From Planctomyces sp. SH-PL62 (GTDB lineage Bacteria > Planctomycetota > Planctomycetia > Planctomycetales > Planctomycetaceae), in the NCBI GenBank assembly GCA_945893075.1, contig CAMDDX010000031.1, positions 1 to 36,032 on the forward strand: a stretch of 36,032 bases of DNA, given 5' to 3'. The position numbers were made by a program, and so were the translations under genes. The notes below the pieces were generated by a model. The model saw nothing but the letters and a program-made list of their open reading frames with translations. It searched no databases and was not told where the DNA came from. Shown here in pieces: positions 25,123-32,620 of the stretch (position 1 is its first letter; each line of letters starts with the position of its first letter).

Positions 25123-25812
25123 TCAATCGTCTCGTGAGTTCACGGCTCCGCTGAATCGAAAGAGGTAGTACGCCAGCGTGAGCATGGATTGCAGCGTCGC
25201 CGCGACGTAGGTCCAGCCGGCGGCGTTGAGCACGTTTCGCACGGCCAGCGCACCTTCTGCGTCAACAATGTTGAGTTGACCGAGTAGCCGTTTGGCGCGG
25301 TTGCTGGCATCGAACTCGACCGGCAGATTGATGAGCTGAAACACGACGGTGAGCGCAAAGGCGGCAATCCCGATCAAAATGAGTTTCGGACTGCCCATGA
25401 CGAACCCCAGGATGAGCAGAATCGAAAAGGCCGTCCCCCCGAACTGAGCGGCAGGAACGGCAGCATTTCTGATGATGAGCGGTGCGTAATGGTTCGCGTG
25501 TTGAATCGCGTGGCCGGCTTCGTGGGCGGCGATGCCGACGGCGGTGGCGGTGTGACTTTCGTAAACCTCCGGGCTGAGCCGCAGCACGCGCGAGCTGGGG
25601 TCGTAGTGGTCCGACAGCCAACCGCTGGCGACTTCTACGCCGACCTCGTGGCAGCCGGAGTTGTCGAGGATGTGTCGCGCGGCGGCGGCTCCGCTGAGCG
25701 GTGCGGAGACTTGCATGCCGTGGTGGTACGCGGATTTGACTCGCCACTGTGCCCACAGCATCAAGACGATCGCGGGGGCGGCAAACACGAAGTAGAGCGG
25801 ATCGAAAAACAT
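25123..25812 (-). CDS. Membrane zinc metallopeptidase, YugP family
   Basis: 229 residues from ATG 25812, with GAGGA about 6 bp upstream; an ATG at 25824 would add MRTI. HEAGHAIQ at residues 97-104 is the zincin-type HExxH (His97, Glu98, His101). The N-terminal helix (FVFAAPAIVLMLWAQ), then SAPLSGAAAARHILD, and two more helices (FGGTAFSILLILGFVM, KLILIGIAAFALTVVFQL) make a membrane-bound peptidase with the active site near the membrane. The conserved EFDASNRAKRLL follows. Such proteins are widespread but the substrates are unknown. It converges with the methyltransferase gene. Confidence 0.92.
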   Translation of the reverse strand: MFFDPLYFVFAAPAIVLMLWAQWRVKSAYHHGMQVSAPLSGAAAARHILDNSGCHEVGVEVASGWLSDHYDPSSRVLRLSPEVYESHTATAVGIAAHEAGHAIQHANHYAPLIIRNAAVPAAQFGGTAFSILLILGFVMGSPKLILIGIAAFALTVVFQLINLPVEFDASNRAKRLLGQLNIVDAEGALAVRNVLNAAGWTYVAATLQSMLTLAYYLFRFSGAVNSRDD

Positions 25813-26230
25813 GATTGTCCTCATTCATTGGGAAGTCACGTCTCGGTCGCTCGGTTTTCTGTTGTGAGTCGATCGAGACGTGCGGCAGAGTCTACGCAAA
25901 CGGCGGGTTGTTCGCTGAGTGATCTGTGTTCTTGTTCGGCTTGCCGTCTAATTCGTCGTCAGGGGGACGACCGTTGATGCTCTTGGATGTCAGAGTTGAT
26001 TGCGACGACATGGCAACGGCGCCGTGACTCGTGCTTCTGTCAGATCTGTTTGGCGATTTCTGGCCGAAACTGCCGCTCATTGTGGAATGTTTCCTCATCA
26101 TCGAAAGAATTCACAGTCTTGGCACCGTGTCTGCGTAACGAACACTTTCGAGCAGACACAAACGAACGGACTTCCCGGAACACTCAAACCAATTCCCTCC
26201 GTCGTTCTGCAAATCAAAAGGAGTCTGGCC
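25813..26230. other. 418-bp divergent gap with a sigma-54-like site
   Basis: Separates the minus-strand metallopeptidase from the plus-strand Gly/Tyr-rich gene. The only structured signals I see are the sigma-54-like promoter at 26119-26134 and the AAGGAG ribosome binding site at 26218-26223. A possible 39-codon minus-strand reading frame (about 25892-26011) lacks a ribosome binding site and is not annotated. Confidence 0.6.
26119..26134 (+). promoter_or_regulatory. Candidate sigma-54 promoter (-24/-12)
   Basis: TTGGCACCGTGTCTGC: TGGCAC, five bases, then CTGC, against the known consensus TGGCAC-N5-TTGC, so one mismatch. The invariant GG and GC doublets are 12 bp centre to centre as required. 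It lies 97 bp before the ATG of the Gly/Tyr-rich gene, giving a leader of about 85 bases. Not proven; a single match of this quality can occur by chance. Confidence 0.45.
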
Positions 26231-26587
26231 ATGAAAAAGTTGATTCTTCTCGCGGTGTTGGCGGTCGGTGCGTTGATCCTGGGGACGACTTCGGAAGCGA
26301 AGGCGGACCACTGGAATAGCTGTGGTCAAAGCTACGGTGGTGGCTACGGTGGTGGCTACGGAGGTGGCTACGGAGGTGGCTACGGTGGTGGCTACAGCTA
26401 CCAGCCCACCTATTACGCTCCGGTCTACGGCAATAGCTACGGGTACGGCTATCCGTCGTCCAGTTTCTCGTACGGTCGTCCGGGCCTGAGCATCTCGATT
26501 GGCTCTGGCTATCGAGGCTATAGCTCCGGCAGCTATGGCGGATACGGTGGCTACGGAGGTGGTGGGCATCACCATCACCACCGCTAA
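26231..26587 (+). CDS. Small secreted Gly/Tyr-rich protein with histidine tail
   Basis: 118 residues; AAGGAG 7 bp before the ATG. A clean signal peptide (KKLILLAVLAVGALILGTTS) with probable cleavage at EAKA-D is followed by HWNSCGQSYGGG and five GGGY units coded by a 12-bp tandem repeat, then a Tyr/Ser/Pro-rich middle, a second Gly/Tyr part (GGYGGYGGGG) and the tail HHHHHR. Similar Gly/Tyr-rich small exported proteins occur in many planctomycetes without known role; the His tail could bind metal and the tyrosines could be cross-linked. A strong terminator follows. One cysteine in the mature part. Confidence 0.85.
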   Translation: MKKLILLAVLAVGALILGTTSEAKADHWNSCGQSYGGGYGGGYGGGYGGGYGGGYSYQPTYYAPVYGNSYGYGYPSSSFSYGRPGLSISIGSGYRGYSSGSYGGYGGYGGGGHHHHHR

Positions 26588-27335: not shown

Positions 27336-28640
27336 TCAAGAGAGTTGGCCAACAAGTAGTCGCAGCCAAGCCAGTGTGTCTGGAAGTTTCGTCGGCAGGT
27401 CGAGCGACTGCTGGAGGAACTCGGTCCAGCGAAGCCGTTCGCGGATGGCGGCATCGACCAGCGGATGAGAACCGGATTGATAGGCACCCACCGAGATCAT
27501 GTCTTCGTGATGGCGGTACGCGGCGAGGACTCGTTTCAACTGGTCGGCGGTGGCTCGATGCTGAGTCGAAGTGACGTCGGGCATCACGCGGCTGATGCTG
27601 GCGAGCACGTCGAGCGCGGGCCAATGAGCTTGCTCGGCGAGTCGCCGCGACAAGACCCAGTGGCCGTCGAGCAGACCACGGACCGCGTCGGCGATCGGTT
27701 CGTTGAAGTCATCGCCGTCGACGAGGACCGTGTAGAGGCCGGTGATGCTGCCGGACTCCGAGTAGCCGGTCCGTTCGACGAGCTTCGGCAAAACACTGAA
27801 GACGCTGGGTGGAAAGCCGCGAGCGGCGGGAGGTTCCCCAGCGGCGAAGCCGACTTCGCGTTGAGCGTGTGCGAATCGAGTCAGCGAATCGACCAGCAGC
27901 AGCACATCGCGGCCTTGATCGCGGAAGAACTCGGCGACGGTCGTGCCGAAGTGAGCGGCTCGCAGGCGAAGCGTCGGTGCTTCATCGCCTGTCGCGACGA
28001 TGACCACGCTGCGACTCAGGCCGTCAGGACCGAGAGACTTTTCGAGGAACTCGCGCACCTCGCGGCCGCGTTCACCGACGAGCACGACGACGTTGACGTC
28101 CGCTTGGCTGCCGCGTGCGATCTGGCCGAGCAACGTACTCTTGCCGACGCCGCTGCCGGCGAAGAGTCCGACGCGCTGCCCTTTTCCGCAGGTCAGCAGA
28201 GCGTCGATTGCGCGAATGCCGGTGCCGAGCGGTTCGGAAATTCGTGGCCGACTCATCGACGCGGGCGGTGCGCCGTACAACGCACGTCGATGTGGCAGCG
28301 CGGGTTTGTCGCCGTCATCGAGAATCTCGCCGCGAGCGTTGAAGACTCGACCGAGCATCTGTTCGCCGACGCGAACTTGCGGAGCGGAGTTTCGCAGCGA
28401 GACCGAATCGCCTCGACGCAGTCCGGCAATGTCACCGAGCGGAAGAAGCAGAGTTTCTTGATCGCGAAAGCCGACGACCTCCGCTTCGGCGAGTCGTTGT
28501 GGTCCACGATGAACTCGGCACAGCGCCCCGATCGGTACGGGAAGCCCTGCAGCGGCGATCGTCAGGCCGCTCAGCCTTGTCACACGGCCGGTCAGTCCGA
28601 CGGGGATGATTTCCGAAACTCGTTCGGCGAACGCGAGCAT
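27336..28640 (-). CDS. fliI: FliI flagellar export ATPase
   Basis: 434 residues from ATG 28640. Upstream ATGs (28652 and beyond) fall in a palindromic repeat. F1-beta-like rotary ATPase: Walker A AGSGVGKST at 161-169, GERGREVREFLE, ATGDEAPTLRLRAAHF, Walker B DVLLLVDSLTRFAHAQRE, and GSITGLYTVLVDGDDFNEP. FliI hydrolyses ATP to assist export of flagellar rod, hook and filament proteins, with FliH and FliJ. The family could also include a type III secretion ATPase, but the fliF/H/I/J order says flagellar. Its ribosome binding region is occupied by the palindrome at 28650, an oddity. Confidence 0.95.
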   Translation of the reverse strand: MLAFAERVSEIIPVGLTGRVTRLSGLTIAAAGLPVPIGALCRVHRGPQRLAEAEVVGFRDQETLLLPLGDIAGLRRGDSVSLRNSAPQVRVGEQMLGRVFNARGEILDDGDKPALPHRRALYGAPPASMSRPRISEPLGTGIRAIDALLTCGKGQRVGLFAGSGVGKSTLLGQIARGSQADVNVVVLVGERGREVREFLEKSLGPDGLSRSVVIVATGDEAPTLRLRAAHFGTTVAEFFRDQGRDVLLLVDSLTRFAHAQREVGFAAGEPPAARGFPPSVFSVLPKLVERTGYSESGSITGLYTVLVDGDDFNEPIADAVRGLLDGHWVLSRRLAEQAHWPALDVLASISRVMPDVTSTQHRATADQLKRVLAAYRHHEDMISVGAYQSGSHPLVDAAIRERLRWTEFLQQSLDLPTKLPDTLAWLRLLVGQLS

Positions 28641-28711: not shown

Positions 28712-29299
28712 TCATTGCAGGAGGAGTTCGTCGGCGATGCGTTGCGTGAGAACTTCGCGTCGCGCATCGATCTGTCCGTTTGCGGTTTCAACGATGCAGT
28801 CACCGCGTGTGAGAGAATCGTCGGCTACAAATTCGAGTGTCGCGCAGGCTTCGGTGTGCAGAGACGCGGCGGCGGACGTGACAAGCTCAGCGTCGGCGGG
28901 GTGGAGGCGGACGCTCAGGTGATCCGCGCCGACGGACCATTCGAGTGCGGAGCGAACCAAGTCGATCACGGCTTCGGGATGAGTGGTCAATGTGCGCTGG
29001 AGGAGACGCTCGGCGATCGCGACACCGAGCCGAATTGTCTCTGTCTGGCACTGGTCGAGCCAGCGGTCTCGTTGGGCGTGCAACTGTTCGGTGGCGGCGT
29101 GCAGCACGGCGAGTGCCGACTGCATGCGCGGATCGACTCGTGAGTCTGCACGGTGAGGCTCACCGGCTGGCAATAACAACGGTTCAAAATCAGACGCCGC
29201 GAATCGCGAGTGACGTATTTCGGACAAGTCACTGAAGACCACTCGGCGAGCGGAAGCGTTGTCGGCGTCGGCTTTGAGAATTCGTGCGGCGGTGGTCAT
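28712..29299 (-). CDS. fliH: FliH-like flagellar export stator/regulator
   Basis: 195 residues; ATG 29299 overlaps the FliF stop by 4 bp (ATGA), so the pair is translationally coupled. After a Ala/Ser-rich N-terminus, the charged helix (ALAVLHAATEQLHAQRDRWL) and the conserved VAIAERLLQRTLTTHPEAVI ... VRLHPADAEL ... GDCIVETANGQIDARREV follow the FliH/V-ATPase E subunit pattern. FliH dimer binds FliI and holds it at the basal body. Standard size for a short FliH. Confidence 0.88.
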   Translation of the reverse strand: MTTAARILKADADNASARRVVFSDLSEIRHSRFAASDFEPLLLPAGEPHRADSRVDPRMQSALAVLHAATEQLHAQRDRWLDQCQTETIRLGVAIAERLLQRTLTTHPEAVIDLVRSALEWSVGADHLSVRLHPADAELVTSAAASLHTEACATLEFVADDSLTRGDCIVETANGQIDARREVLTQRIADELLLQ

Positions 29300-31029
29300 G
29301 CGAAGACCCTCTGCGTCGGAGTTTCGGGGAGCAGATGGGCGATGCGGTTGGTGGGTTCGTGGATCGTGATCGTTTCGGTCGGAGGAGCCATGCGTTGGCA
29401 GACGGAGCGGGCGATGTCCGCAACGAGTTCGTCGTGGACTTCGCCGAGCGATTTGAGGCGGCGAATCAAGTCGGTCTGCAAGGAAGACGGGAATCGCGAC
29501 AGACAGGCCGAGGCGAGTCGTGTCGAAAAGCGAGTCAACAAGACCGCGATGGCTTGCGGACGCTCTTGCCGCAGCGCGTCTCCCAGCGTCTGCGGATCGA
29601 GTTGTTGCAGGCGAGCCAGGTCGGTGAGCGGTTCGATTGGAGTTGGTGGTGCGCTGAACGTGTCGATCGCCTCGTGAGCGAATGGCGAATGTCCGCTGAG
29701 GGATTCGGCATTCAAAGACGGGTGATCCGTGGAACGATCGTTCGGAAGGCTGGTGCCTTCCGCTTGCCGCCGACGGGTGGCGACCGCGAGGCAAAGAACG
29801 GCGAGGAATCCGCAGACAACGTGTGGCCAGGCGGCGAACGGTGTGAACAGCGGCGTCGCCGCCGTGTTGACGGCGCGAGGTTCGATCGACAGTTCGGCGA
29901 GTGTGGCGTCGGGCGGCAACAGGTTCTGCACGAGTTGTCGCAATCGAGCATACTCCGCATCGCAGAGTTCCTCGAAGTGTTTGTGGCGATGTTCGGCGGA
30001 CAGCGATTGTTGGACGACCTGGGCCTCGAACGAGGTTTGCGGAATTTGAACGGTGATGTGCCATCCGTAGGAACTGGCGGAGTCAGTCGTCTCTGACAGC
30101 GGCGGTGCGTCGTGATCAATGGCGGTGAACGGCGAGAACTCGACGAGGTTGTCGGGAGCATCCGTCGTCCAGACGACCGTTGAGCCGAAGGTAGGTTTGG
30201 CCGCGATGTGGTGCGTCTTCGCGACGTGTACTTCCACGAGCTTGGCCTGCACGGTCGCGTCCGGGATGTGTGCGAGTGCGGCGGCGATTCGCGATTCGAG
30301 TTGTCGGGCGAGTCGCTCTTGTTGGCGGCGGCGTTGTTCGACGATCAGTTGTTCGGAGTCGTTGGAGACCGTGAGGCCGGTCGATTGGTCGAGCACGACG
30401 ATATCCTTCGCGCTGAGGTCCGGGATCATGCCGGCGACGGCGGCGCGGAGTGACCGTGCGAGTTCGGGGGTGAGGTCGTGTCCGTCGCGCGGCAGGACGT
30501 TGATCGTGGCGGTGACTTTGGTGTGGCTCGCGAAGGCGGAGCGACCTTTGCCGCGTGCCCAAATCACGTCGGCGTCGGCGATGGCTGGGATGGCCTTCAG
30601 GTGTCGCCGCAAAGTGGCGCGAAGGTCGTTGTCTTTGATTTGCTCAAGCTGCTCGTGGCTGGTGAAGAGATTGGCCTTGGCGATGGATGGACCTCGTTCG
30701 TCTCCGGAGTCGCTGTCGTCTCGTTGCGATTTGGGAAGCGCGGCGGTGTACCGAGCGATGTCCGCCGACGGAACGAGCAATTTGTGAGCATCGCGGCGAA
30801 ACGATTTGAGTCCGGCTTGTCGCCAAGCGGATTGAATGGCGGCGAGTTCCGAAGATTTGAATTCGCGGCCATCCGCGATTGGCTGCCAACTTTCAGACGA
30901 GCGGTTCAGCAGAAAATAAAACCCGACCGCGCTGGCGATGAGTACGGCGACCATCGCGATGCGTTGGCCGCGAGCGAGTCGCTGCCAACGATCAACGAGT
31001 GGGGCCGCGTGTCGTCGCAATTCGTCCAT
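29296..31029 (-). CDS. fliF: FliF MS-ring protein fused to a FliG middle-domain-like segment
   Basis: 577 residues. TM1 at 24-41 (AMVAVLIASAVGFYFLL) and TM2 at 402-418 (VVCGFLAVLCLAVA) bracket the ring-building periplasmic part (e.g. ADVIWARGKGRSAF, TATINVLPRDGHDLT, AGMIPDLSAKDIVVLDQSTG). In normal FliF, a short cytoplasmic tail after TM2 binds FliG. Here residues 467-548 read like FliG_M: LARLQQLDPQTLGDAL RQERPQAIAVLLTRF, then RLASACLSRFPSSLQTDLI and RRLKSLGEVHDELVADIA, with ERPQ in place of the EHPQ motif. The FliG torque (C-terminal) domain is absent. No separate fliG lies between fliF and fliH, its normal place. It is coupled to fliH by ATGA. Confidence 0.9.
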   Translation of the reverse strand: MDELRRHAAPLVDRWQRLARGQRIAMVAVLIASAVGFYFLLNRSSESWQPIADGREFKSSELAAIQSAWRQAGLKSFRRDAHKLLVPSADIARYTAALPKSQRDDSDSGDERGPSIAKANLFTSHEQLEQIKDNDLRATLRRHLKAIPAIADADVIWARGKGRSAFASHTKVTATINVLPRDGHDLTPELARSLRAAVAGMIPDLSAKDIVVLDQSTGLTVSNDSEQLIVEQRRRQQERLARQLESRIAAALAHIPDATVQAKLVEVHVAKTHHIAAKPTFGSTVVWTTDAPDNLVEFSPFTAIDHDAPPLSETTDSASSYGWHITVQIPQTSFEAQVVQQSLSAEHRHKHFEELCDAEYARLRQLVQNLLPPDATLAELSIEPRAVNTAATPLFTPFAAWPHVVCGFLAVLCLAVATRRRQAEGTSLPNDRSTDHPSLNAESLSGHSPFAHEAIDTFSAPPTPIEPLTDLARLQQLDPQTLGDALRQERPQAIAVLLTRFSTRLASACLSRFPSSLQTDLIRRLKSLGEVHDELVADIARSVCQRMAPPTETITIHEPTNRIAHLLPETPTQRVFA

Positions 31030-31138: not shown

Positions 31139-32620
31139 TTACGCTGCTTTCAGATTCGATCCCGGCCCGCCGCGCGGGGGGTAGCCGTATTCGCGGAGCT
31201 TGCCGGAGAGGGTGCGGAGGCCGATGTCGAGCGAGCTGGCGGTCTTCTCGCGGTTGCCGCCGCAGCGCGTGAACGTGGTTTCGATGAGTTGTCGCTCCAT
31301 GTCGGCGAGCGTCATGCGTGGGATCTCGTTTCCTTCGATGACTTCGGACTTGGCGAGCCACGGCCGCAGCATGTCGGCGGTGATGTCGTTCCCTTTGGCG
31401 AGGATCGCGGTGTTTCGCAAGACTGTGTACAGCTCGCAGAGGTTGCCGGGCCAGAGGTGTTCCTTGAGACCTTCCAGCGCGTTGCGGGTCAATCGCGGAC
31501 GCGGCTGATCTTCCTGGAGTGCCCAGCGGATGAAGAATTGTTCGGCCAGCGGAGCGATGTCTTCGGGGCGTTCGCGGACGGGCGGCACGAGCAGCCGTTC
31601 GGCGTTCAATCCGCGGACGAGGATTTCCAGGCCGAGCGTTTGCCGAGTCGGCAGATCAAAGTTCTGATGCGTCGAGGCGATGATACGGACGATCGAGCGA
31701 TGCCGGCCTTGTGATCCGTCGGCCAGCTCTTGTTGCCGAGCGACGAAGCGGCAGAGCGGCTTTTGCAACGCGACCGGAAACTCGTCGAACTCGTCGAGGA
31801 ACAGCGTCCCGCCCGCGGGGCGAGTCGGTGTGTCGAGCGGCAGCGTGGCAACCTCGGTGTCGCAGACATCGACACAAAGCAAGTCGTTGAGTTGTTCCAG
31901 CGTGAGCGAGCGGCTGTGAACTCGGACGAACGGCTGCGCCGATCGCGAACAGGCATCGTGGATCGCGTTGGCCAGCAGACTGGTTCCCGTACCGGTTTCG
32001 CCGCAGATCAGGACCGGCGTGTCGCACGCGGCGGCGGAGTCGACGGACTCGAACAGCTTCAACATGCGCGGGCTGCCGCCGAGCACTTCGCGCAGCGAAT
32101 GCGTCTGCGTCTGCGATTGCGGATGCGCGGCGTGTTGTTGTGATCGTTGTGATTCGGCGTGGCGAATCGCCATCTTGATGATGGACTGCAACGCCGCGGT
32201 GGAGAATTCGTGATGGTCGAGCATCGTCAGCCGCGCGGCGATGTCTTCGGAACGCAACCCGACGGGGAGCGAATGACCGTCATTCGCGGCAGAGATCAAC
32301 AACAACTGCGTACAACCGCTGTTGCCCAGCAGTGCGGCGGAGAAGTCGCGGATCGGTCGCGAGCCGCTGTCGGAATTGGCGGCGGCGTGCAAAGTCTCGT
32401 CATCGATGATGACCAGAGACGTTGGTTCGCGGAGCAACAGCGTCGCGGCCTGATCTAAAGGGCGGTTCGATTCGGTGGAGAGCATGTTTCCCCCCGCCTG
32501 TTCGATCGCAATCCGGACCGTCGGATTGGAAACGCACAGCAACACGCGAGGAGTGGCGGGGAGTCGGCCGGCGACTGCTGCCGTGGATGAAAAGTCGGGA
32601 CGGAGGGGGCTGGAGTACAT
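31139..32620 (-). CDS. Degenerate NtrC-type AAA+ regulator (FlrC/FleR-like), lacking GAFTGA and Walker A Lys
   Basis: 493 residues. N-terminal receiver-like domain (25-155) has no typical phospho-acceptor context (SLVIIDDETL). The AAA+ domain has Walker A as GETGTGTS (207-214), with Thr213 where Lys is invariant, and Walker B LFLDEFDEF intact. The ESELFGHEKGAFTGA loop that contacts sigma-54 is missing: LEQLNDLLCVDVCDTEV runs directly into the Walker B strand. Sensor II/late part HLWPGNLCELYTVLRNTAIL and the C-terminal HTH (GGNREKTASSLDIGLRTLSG) are normal. Likely a flagellar-gene DNA-binding regulator that does not activate sigma-54 polymerase by the usual mechanism. Position upstream of fliF supports the link to flagella. 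Confidence 0.85.
   Translation of the reverse strand: MYSSPLRPDFSSTAAVAGRLPATPRVLLCVSNPTVRIAIEQAGGNMLSTESNRPLDQAATLLLREPTSLVIIDDETLHAAANSDSGSRPIRDFSAALLGNSGCTQLLLISAANDGHSLPVGLRSEDIAARLTMLDHHEFSTAALQSIIKMAIRHAESQRSQQHAAHPQSQTQTHSLREVLGGSPRMLKLFESVDSAAACDTPVLICGETGTGTSLLANAIHDACSRSAQPFVRVHSRSLTLEQLNDLLCVDVCDTEVATLPLDTPTRPAGGTLFLDEFDEFPVALQKPLCRFVARQQELADGSQGRHRSIVRIIASTHQNFDLPTRQTLGLEILVRGLNAERLLVPPVRERPEDIAPLAEQFFIRWALQEDQPRPRLTRNALEGLKEHLWPGNLCELYTVLRNTAILAKGNDITADMLRPWLAKSEVIEGNEIPRMTLADMERQLIETTFTRCGGNREKTASSLDIGLRTLSGKLREYGYPPRGGPGSNLKAA

Follow-up and report, generated by a model that had tools for sequence, protein, structure and literature searches.

Introduction

The amino-terminal domain of the switch protein FliG (FliG_N) holds the MS-ring protein FliF, and its middle and carboxy-terminal domains (FliG_M and FliG_C) both contact FliM (PMC4768692). 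FliF and FliG have been joined covalently in artificial fusions in Salmonella (PMC4768692) and Vibrio (PMC11481574), and the Salmonella fusions are reported still to assemble and rotate (PMC4768692). The closest natural counterpart is described in the Chlamydiaceae, bacteria not thought to be flagellated, whose FliF has two membrane helices and a FliG middle domain at its end (Bergeron 2016, PMC4768692). A motility-free intermediate was described in the Myxococcales by Abby and Rocha in 2012, whose main text names the Planctomycetes once, in a list of flagellated phyla (PMC3459982). Among the titles and abstract openings of open-licence papers listed in our literature search, none concerned a planctomycete FliF-FliG fusion or a motorless flagellar set.

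In this study, we analysed the flagellar genes of a planctomycete genome (G000, the focal genome) starting from one entire contig of 36,032 bases (G000:C31), which is the whole stretch of DNA referred to here as the window. Its fliF gene ends in a segment that encodes FliG_M, and we compared this gene, its neighbours and the remaining flagellar genes of the focal genome with those of members of the same genus and of other genera.

Results

A FliF protein that ends in the middle domain of FliG

The FliF encoded in the window has the features of an MS-ring protein, with YscJ_FliF ring domains that sit between two membrane helices and fold matches to MS-ring structures (Table 1). The positions of the two hydrophobic helices predict that the FliG part of the protein is located in the cytoplasm. 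A sequence-only reading of the locus had proposed a FliG_M pattern after the second of these helices, without the FliG_C torque domain, and both proposals were confirmed by hmmscan searches with Pfam profiles. FliG_M scored 45.3 bits against a curated gathering cut-off of 25, and over the same stretch FliG_C reached an E-value of only 0.033, under its cut-off. FliG_M is the only one of the three FliG domains in this protein, as neither FliG_N (PF14842) nor FliG_C had a match above cut-off anywhere in its 577 residues. NCBIfam profiles gave partial matches, below their full-length cut-offs, to FliG at residues 471-546 (1.6e-10) and to FliF at residues 12-255 (1.3e-6).

A model of the tail, whose underlying alignment contained real FliG rows, had pLDDT values above 90 across the FliG_M domain. 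It superposed at 1.7-1.8 Å on the FliG of 4fq0, 4qrm_D and 8wiw, FliG-FliM and C-ring structures among them, with modest E-values (best 3.8e-4); the match to 4fq0_C, the FliG of a FliG-FliM structure, had an rmsd of 1.8, a TM score of 0.84 by target length and an E-value of 5.9e-4. A model of the whole FliF made from the 12 genus rows alone had a pLDDT of 61, which calls for caution, and matched MS-ring structures as well as 4fq0_C (E 2.7e-3). In addition, a profile of the tail with 38 relatives, real FliGs included, found 12 PDB sequences, every one of which carries the name of FliG, of a flagellar motor switch protein or of a construct of FliF and FliG.

Every one of the 12 genus genomes contains the fused reading frame, which ends about 30 residues past FliG_M in a conserved NRIAHL tail, with N561, R562, I563, H565 and L566 invariant in the 12 genomes and A564 nearly so. 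The tetrapeptide that corresponds to EHPQ of FliG, which we take to have a role in binding FliM, is ERPQ in 11 of the genomes and ERSQ in the other. FliG_M is under purifying selection, with a mean dN/dS of 0.13 over 45 pairs among 10 of the 12 genomes; the YscJ core had a mean of 0.12 and the linker one of 0.56.

Table 1. Features of the fliF-fliG_M fusion gene and adjoining genes in the window (residue numbers refer to the 577-aa fusion protein).
Feature	Coordinates	Strand	Evidence
Sigma-54 activator upstream of fliF	31139..32620	-	PF00158 3.2e-20; matched in 11/11 genus fliF loci
fliF-fliG_M fusion gene, 577 aa	29296..31029	-	Pfam, both parts over cut-off; architecture same in 12/12 genus genomes
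First transmembrane helix, residues 24-42	30904..30960	-	Hydropathy; helix in whole-FliF model
YscJ_FliF ring domains, residues 59-218	30376..30855	-	PF01514 E 6.2e-13; Foldseek matches to MS-ring structures
Second transmembrane helix, residues 398-416	29782..29838	-	Hydropathy
Variable cytoplasmic linker, about residues 417-466	29632..29781	-	Mean dN/dS 0.56 (residues 419-466); pLDDT <50
FliG middle-domain segment, residues 467-548 (Pfam core 479-545)	29386..29631	-	PF14841 E 1e-11; model pLDDT >90; FliG_M fold matches; mean dN/dS 0.13
ERPQ, residues 489-492, counterpart of FliG EHPQ	29554..29565	-	Alignment; E, R, Q in 12/12 and P in 11/12 genus genomes
C-terminal tail and stop, NRIAHL motif, no FliG_C after	29296..29385	-	Alignment; dN/dS 0.24 (residues 549-577)
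fliH (4-base overlap with fliF stop)	28712..29299	-	PF02108 E 9.4e-23
fliI export ATPase	27336..28640	-	PF00006 6.6e-85; T3SS_ATPase_C 1.4e-19; FliI/YscN subfamily TIGR01026 over cut-off
Small coiled-coil-like protein in fliJ position, 150 aa	26860..27312	-	Position only

Neighbouring genes

The gene order passes from fliF straight to fliH, as had been read from the sequence, and since fliH begins within the fliF stop there is no room for fliG at its usual place. The frame in the fliJ position had no NCBIfam match, and a longer 254-aa frame there had no Pfam match. A search of the window for sigma-54 promoters of the -24/-12 type returned 8 matches when 16 are expected by chance. The sigma-28 consensus had 0 matches in the focal genome and also 0 in the flagellated controls G012, G024 and G033, and hence was uninformative.

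Two further genes recur beside the fli genes in the genus. One is a Gly/Tyr-rich frame with a signal-peptide-like stretch and a His-rich end (26000-26587, plus strand), which is convergent with the fli genes and was found at 9 of 11 genus fliF loci. The other (25123-25824, minus strand) encodes a conserved membrane protein with a HEAGH motif that adjoins the fli genes in 8 of 11 genus loci; it had no NCBIfam match and is perhaps a zinc peptidase. Across genera, the genes common to the neighbourhoods of these loci are flagellar export, C-ring and regulatory genes, and no new shared neighbour near the motorless loci (defined below) was recognised as an axial part, a substrate or an outer conduit.

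Spread of FliG_M, FliG_C and the fusion

In the focal genome, FliG_M (PF14841) had one match, which is the FliF fusion, and FliG_C (PF01706) had none, although any single absence from this assembly, which is 92.9% complete and in 484 contigs, carries little weight. Of 14 control genomes, four gave a match, and these were the same four with both profiles; among 119 genomes, comprising the focal genome and its relatives, FliG_M was found in 100 and FliG_C in 97. Within the genus, no FliG_C was found in nine of the 12 genomes, which are 87-99% complete. The other three (G001, G003 and G005) have FliG_C in a separate frame of 342-354 aa and also match rod/hook and flagellin profiles, that is, they have a second set of flagellar genes. 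The sequence-only reading had offered as one possibility that FliF captured the M domain of FliG while the torque domain is encoded elsewhere. The capture is upheld by these results, and an encoded torque domain was found neither in the focal genome nor in the nine genus genomes.

Eleven loci of other genera had matches to FliF and FliG_C in one frame, and in nine of these FliG_M was matched too. In G012, fliF and fliG are adjacent but separate genes, an arrangement from which it follows that, for a fusion to form, FliG_N and the boundary between the two genes must be lost.

Other FliG arrangements were also encountered. A separate FliG of 207 aa (L062:5483-6106, plus strand) has the N and M domains without the torque domain and overlaps the end of fliF, and G069 has a similar frame of 206 aa that is known by its FliG_M match only; these represent a second route to the loss of FliG_C. 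The long-frame FliGs of family f2 (L057, L058 and L061) were considered as fusions and rejected, since the FliF of L057 lies in a different frame and L058 and L061 had no FliF match within the FliG frame. Their FliG matches comprise N and C parts and no middle part, and FlhB at these loci is also without an NPxH motif. G008 has the fusion and flagellar genes yet no separate FliG, and G033 has a flagellar set by four other markers yet no FliG match; assembly gaps are perhaps the reason in both. Four genomes (G001, G039, G047 and G051) have the fused FliF set beside a second flagellar set. The FlhA of this second set groups in a different clade, and its separate FliG belongs to a more divergent type (in G039 judged on score only).

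Motility markers go unmatched and export genes are kept

The Pfam profiles MotB_plug, Flg_bb_rod, Flagellin_N and FliE served as motility markers, with MotB as the stator marker. None of these matched in the focal genome or in the seven other genus members that are without a second flagellar set, with the reservation that very divergent axial proteins would escape Pfam searches. Among 31 genomes tested, which were picked after the FliG results, all four markers were missing in 20, all four were present in 10, and G003 had rod and flagellin only. The 20 genomes, referred to here as motorless, are the focal genome, the seven other genus members, G017, G020, G041, G048, G057, G066, G067, G090, G014, G069, G030 and G038, the last four being those in which no fusion was seen. 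A fused FliF without a separate FliG_C occurred in 17 of the tested genomes, and all of these except G008 are among the motorless ones (16 of 17).

FlhA was matched in all 20 motorless genomes and FliMN_C in 17, with none in G030, G038 and G048, and a link to the C-ring is thus not universal among them. The flagellar-type export apparatus of the focal genome is complete (FlhA, FlhB, FliP, FliQ, FliR, FliH and FliI), with FlhB lacking its C-terminal domain. The genes of the system are spread over four contigs: the window; C113, with FlhA, FlhF- and FlhG-like genes and a FliA-type sigma factor; C101, with FliP, FliQ, FliR, FlhB and a fusion of FliN to FliO; and C20, with FliM. The focal FlhA scored 751.7 bits as FlhA versus 559.1 as SctV, below both NCBIfam cut-offs. 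Each of the eight genus members having only the fused system has one FHIPEP gene, and therefore gives no sign of a separate injectisome, SctV being the only injectisome gene considered.

Conservation and loss within the retained proteins

Fused and separate FliGs were aligned to one profile built from separate FliGs, and torque residues are cited in what we take to be E. coli numbering. R281 was present in all 22 distinct separate FliGs versus two of the 11 fused FliG_C domains, and the residue at D288 was acidic in 22/22 separate FliGs versus 0/11 fused ones. The position of D289 was acidic in 20/22 versus 2/11, and at K264 the separate FliGs had K in 20 of 22 and the fused domains K or R in two of 11. 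The HPQ motif was kept in six of the nine fusions with both domains aligned, the remaining three having EPPQ, EDPQ and EPID. The FliM homologues of 14 motorless genomes retain an N-terminus like Lxx[ST]E..L[LF], a motif that presumably resembles the CheY-binding one, and LLGG is present in 12 of the 14, being missing in G014 and G069.

The focal FlhB (L112:200-1012, minus strand) is cut before the NPTH autocleavage domain, with a PF01312 match that stops at position 243 of 335 and no NPxH. This motif was found in none of nine complete motorless FlhB copies (G000, G002, G009, G011, G067, G041, G090, G057 and G051), and the other FlhB copy of G051 does carry it. On contig C101 of the focal genome, FliN (SpoA) and FliO are joined in a single polypeptide of about 362 aa (L112:3173-4261, minus strand). 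The same fusion was found in seven of the eight genus loci examined, the eighth (G007) matching neither part, and FliN and FliO are separate frames in seven other genomes.

History of the fusion and of motility loss

A tree of 71 FlhA copies had a clade of 21, a clade of 48 and two further copies. The clade of 21 contains the second copies of G001, G008, G039, G047 and G051; in G001, G039 and G047 this copy is on the same contig as rod or flagellin genes, and in G051, which is one contig, it is within about 15 kb of rod and flagellin genes. In genomes with two sets, the FlhA copy belonging to the fusion was assigned by clade and not by linkage. The clade of 48 mixes motile and motorless planctomycete sets, and the focal FlhA is placed among the FlhAs of planctomycete flagella.

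On the tree of the 48 copies, the motorless label, carried by 25 rows, needs 7 changes, of which well-supported branches force at least 3, when most of the 23 unlabelled rows are counted as motile from a separate FliG or by default, without a motility-gene search. The motorless rows formed one group in 0 of 200 bootstrap trees, and a constraint uniting the 24 motorless-labelled rows of the family was rejected (AU p 7.5e-87). These results suggest that motility was likely lost repeatedly; a tree restricted to rows tested for motility genes (19 motorless and 3 motile) needs 1 change only. The fused state (22 fused copies versus 17 with a separate full-length FliG) needs 6 changes, or 5 after removal of 8 ambiguous copies (31 rows), and relatives with a separate complete FliG are interspersed among the fused ones. 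The FlhA tree therefore makes more than one origin of the fusion within the family probable.

Discussion

We consider that the system to which the fused FliF belongs is a stationary, motorless type III export apparatus derived from a native planctomycete flagellum, and give this reading a probability of roughly 0.73. In flagella, FliG_C meets the stator. In the apparatus we propose, the joint between FliF and FliG_N would have been replaced by a peptide bond, with the FliM-holding middle domain retained and the torque domain dropped. FliG_N would be unneeded because FliF is fused directly to FliG_M, FliG_C would be of no use because the stator is absent, and the FlhB switch would likewise be of no use because rod and hook are absent. 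FliM and FliN would be kept so that FliH-FliI can be held beneath the gate of FlhA, FlhB and FliPQR. Motif conservation on both sides, ERPQ in the fusion and LLGG in FliM, is consistent with binding of FliM by the fused FliG_M, and in the genus the C-ring may have a covalent link to a membrane protein at each end, through FliF-FliG_M and FliN-FliO. We infer that the gene products assemble into one machine and that this machine would export proteins, most likely across the inner membrane, and perhaps no further, because no axial part is known.

The best-surviving alternative, which we regard as unlikely, is that the flagellum was lost and that its remaining genes are decaying and no longer functional. 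The loss of motility genes and the erosion of FliG_C and of the FlhB C-terminal domain do resemble decay, and no substrate is known. However, a relic would not be expected from a fusion kept throughout the genus, from mean dN/dS values of 0.12-0.13 in the FliF and FliG_M cores, from export and C-ring genes that recur across genera, or from the persistence of the fused set beside a second flagellar set in four genomes.

The Planctomycetota and the chlamydial phylum are relatives. FliF-FliG_M, FlhA and FliI could be a Chlamydia-like module that came down from a shared ancestor and acts as an accessory to a separate injectisome. C. pneumoniae is described as having FliI, FlhA and FliF (PMC2830194), and the FliF of Chlamydiaceae, which are not considered to be flagellated, shares the FliG_M ending (PMC4768692). 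We nevertheless find a shared module improbable. The focal genome has FliP, FliQ, FliR, FlhB, FliM and FliN of its own and a single FHIPEP gene, with no sign of a second SctV (the only injectisome gene considered), and the separate complete FliGs among fused relatives in the FlhA tree argue for a later fusion within planctomycetes.

The sequence-only reading had raised, as its other possibility, a flagellum with a redesigned rotor. Such a flagellum would still rotate, with FliM or another protein taking up torque in place of FliG_C. Its appeal lies in the kept FliM with its conserved CheY-binding-like motif, the FlhF- and FlhG-like GTPase/ATPase genes, the FliA-type sigma factor and the sigma-54 activator. 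This reading is doubtful in the extreme, however, as eight of eight genus members without a second set had no MotB, rod/hook, flagellin or FliE match, the FlhB switch domain is missing, and those relatives that retain FliG_C have already lost its torque residues. Similarly slight is the chance that a torque domain, or an entire fliG, is present and escaped detection because of gaps in the assembly or sequence divergence: the focal assembly is incomplete and the FliG_C of G090 scores only 5.8e-7, so that a more divergent one could drop below threshold, but nine of 12 genus members gave no match at 87-99% completeness, the other three have it in a separate frame in genomes with further flagellar genes, and the FliF frame closes with a conserved tail, which fliH overlaps.

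Beyond the single export apparatus, these results may indicate that the Planctomycetota repeatedly converted their native flagellum to a distinct non-flagellar type III class, which would be motorless, rodless and without the FlhB substrate switch, with a C-ring that in the genus is membrane-tied at both ends, with living intermediates and, in some lineages, with a second, different flagellum. We regard the odds for and against this wider proposal as evenly balanced. The passage from flagellum to secretion machine is usually argued from end products, and here related genera present stages: separate FliF and FliG; a near-canonical FliG fused to FliF with its torque residues partly gone; a degenerate FliG_C; and FliG_M alone. 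The case would divide the C-ring into a part needed for export, which holds FliM and FliN and so the ATPase, versus a part for motility only. It is also a warning that fliF, flhA, fliM and fliP in a planctomycete genome are no proof of swimming.

Comparison with known systems

Profile and fold both identify the FliF tail as FliG_M, with ERPQ at the position of EHPQ; the tail differs from FliG in being covalently part of FliF, with no FliG_N or FliG_C above cut-off. The artificial Salmonella and Vibrio fusions share the covalent joint between the MS-ring protein and FliG (PMC4768692, PMC11481574), but they are laboratory-made and those of Salmonella can rotate, whereas the planctomycete fusion is natural and without the torque domain. 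As in non-flagellar type III secretion systems and the Myxococcales intermediate, as these are described in PMC3459982, an export apparatus derived from the flagellum is found minus motility parts. Unlike the FlhA counterpart of the non-flagellar systems, the focal FlhA is closer to FlhA than to SctV and is placed among planctomycete flagellar FlhAs.

The fusion of FliF to FliG_M is already known from the Chlamydiaceae (PMC4768692); what is new is a whole motorless set, its intermediates and signs of multiple fusion origins. Compared by description, the Chlamydiaceae FliF has a length of about 330 aa and a reduced periplasmic region (PMC4768692), whereas the FliF described here is 577 aa with YscJ_FliF ring domains. 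Chlamydia, again by description, has an injectisome, whereas the planctomycete genome encodes FliM, FliN and a gate set of its own, with only one FHIPEP gene. To the chlamydial case, the planctomycete one therefore adds a full gate, FliM, FliN and intermediate architectures.
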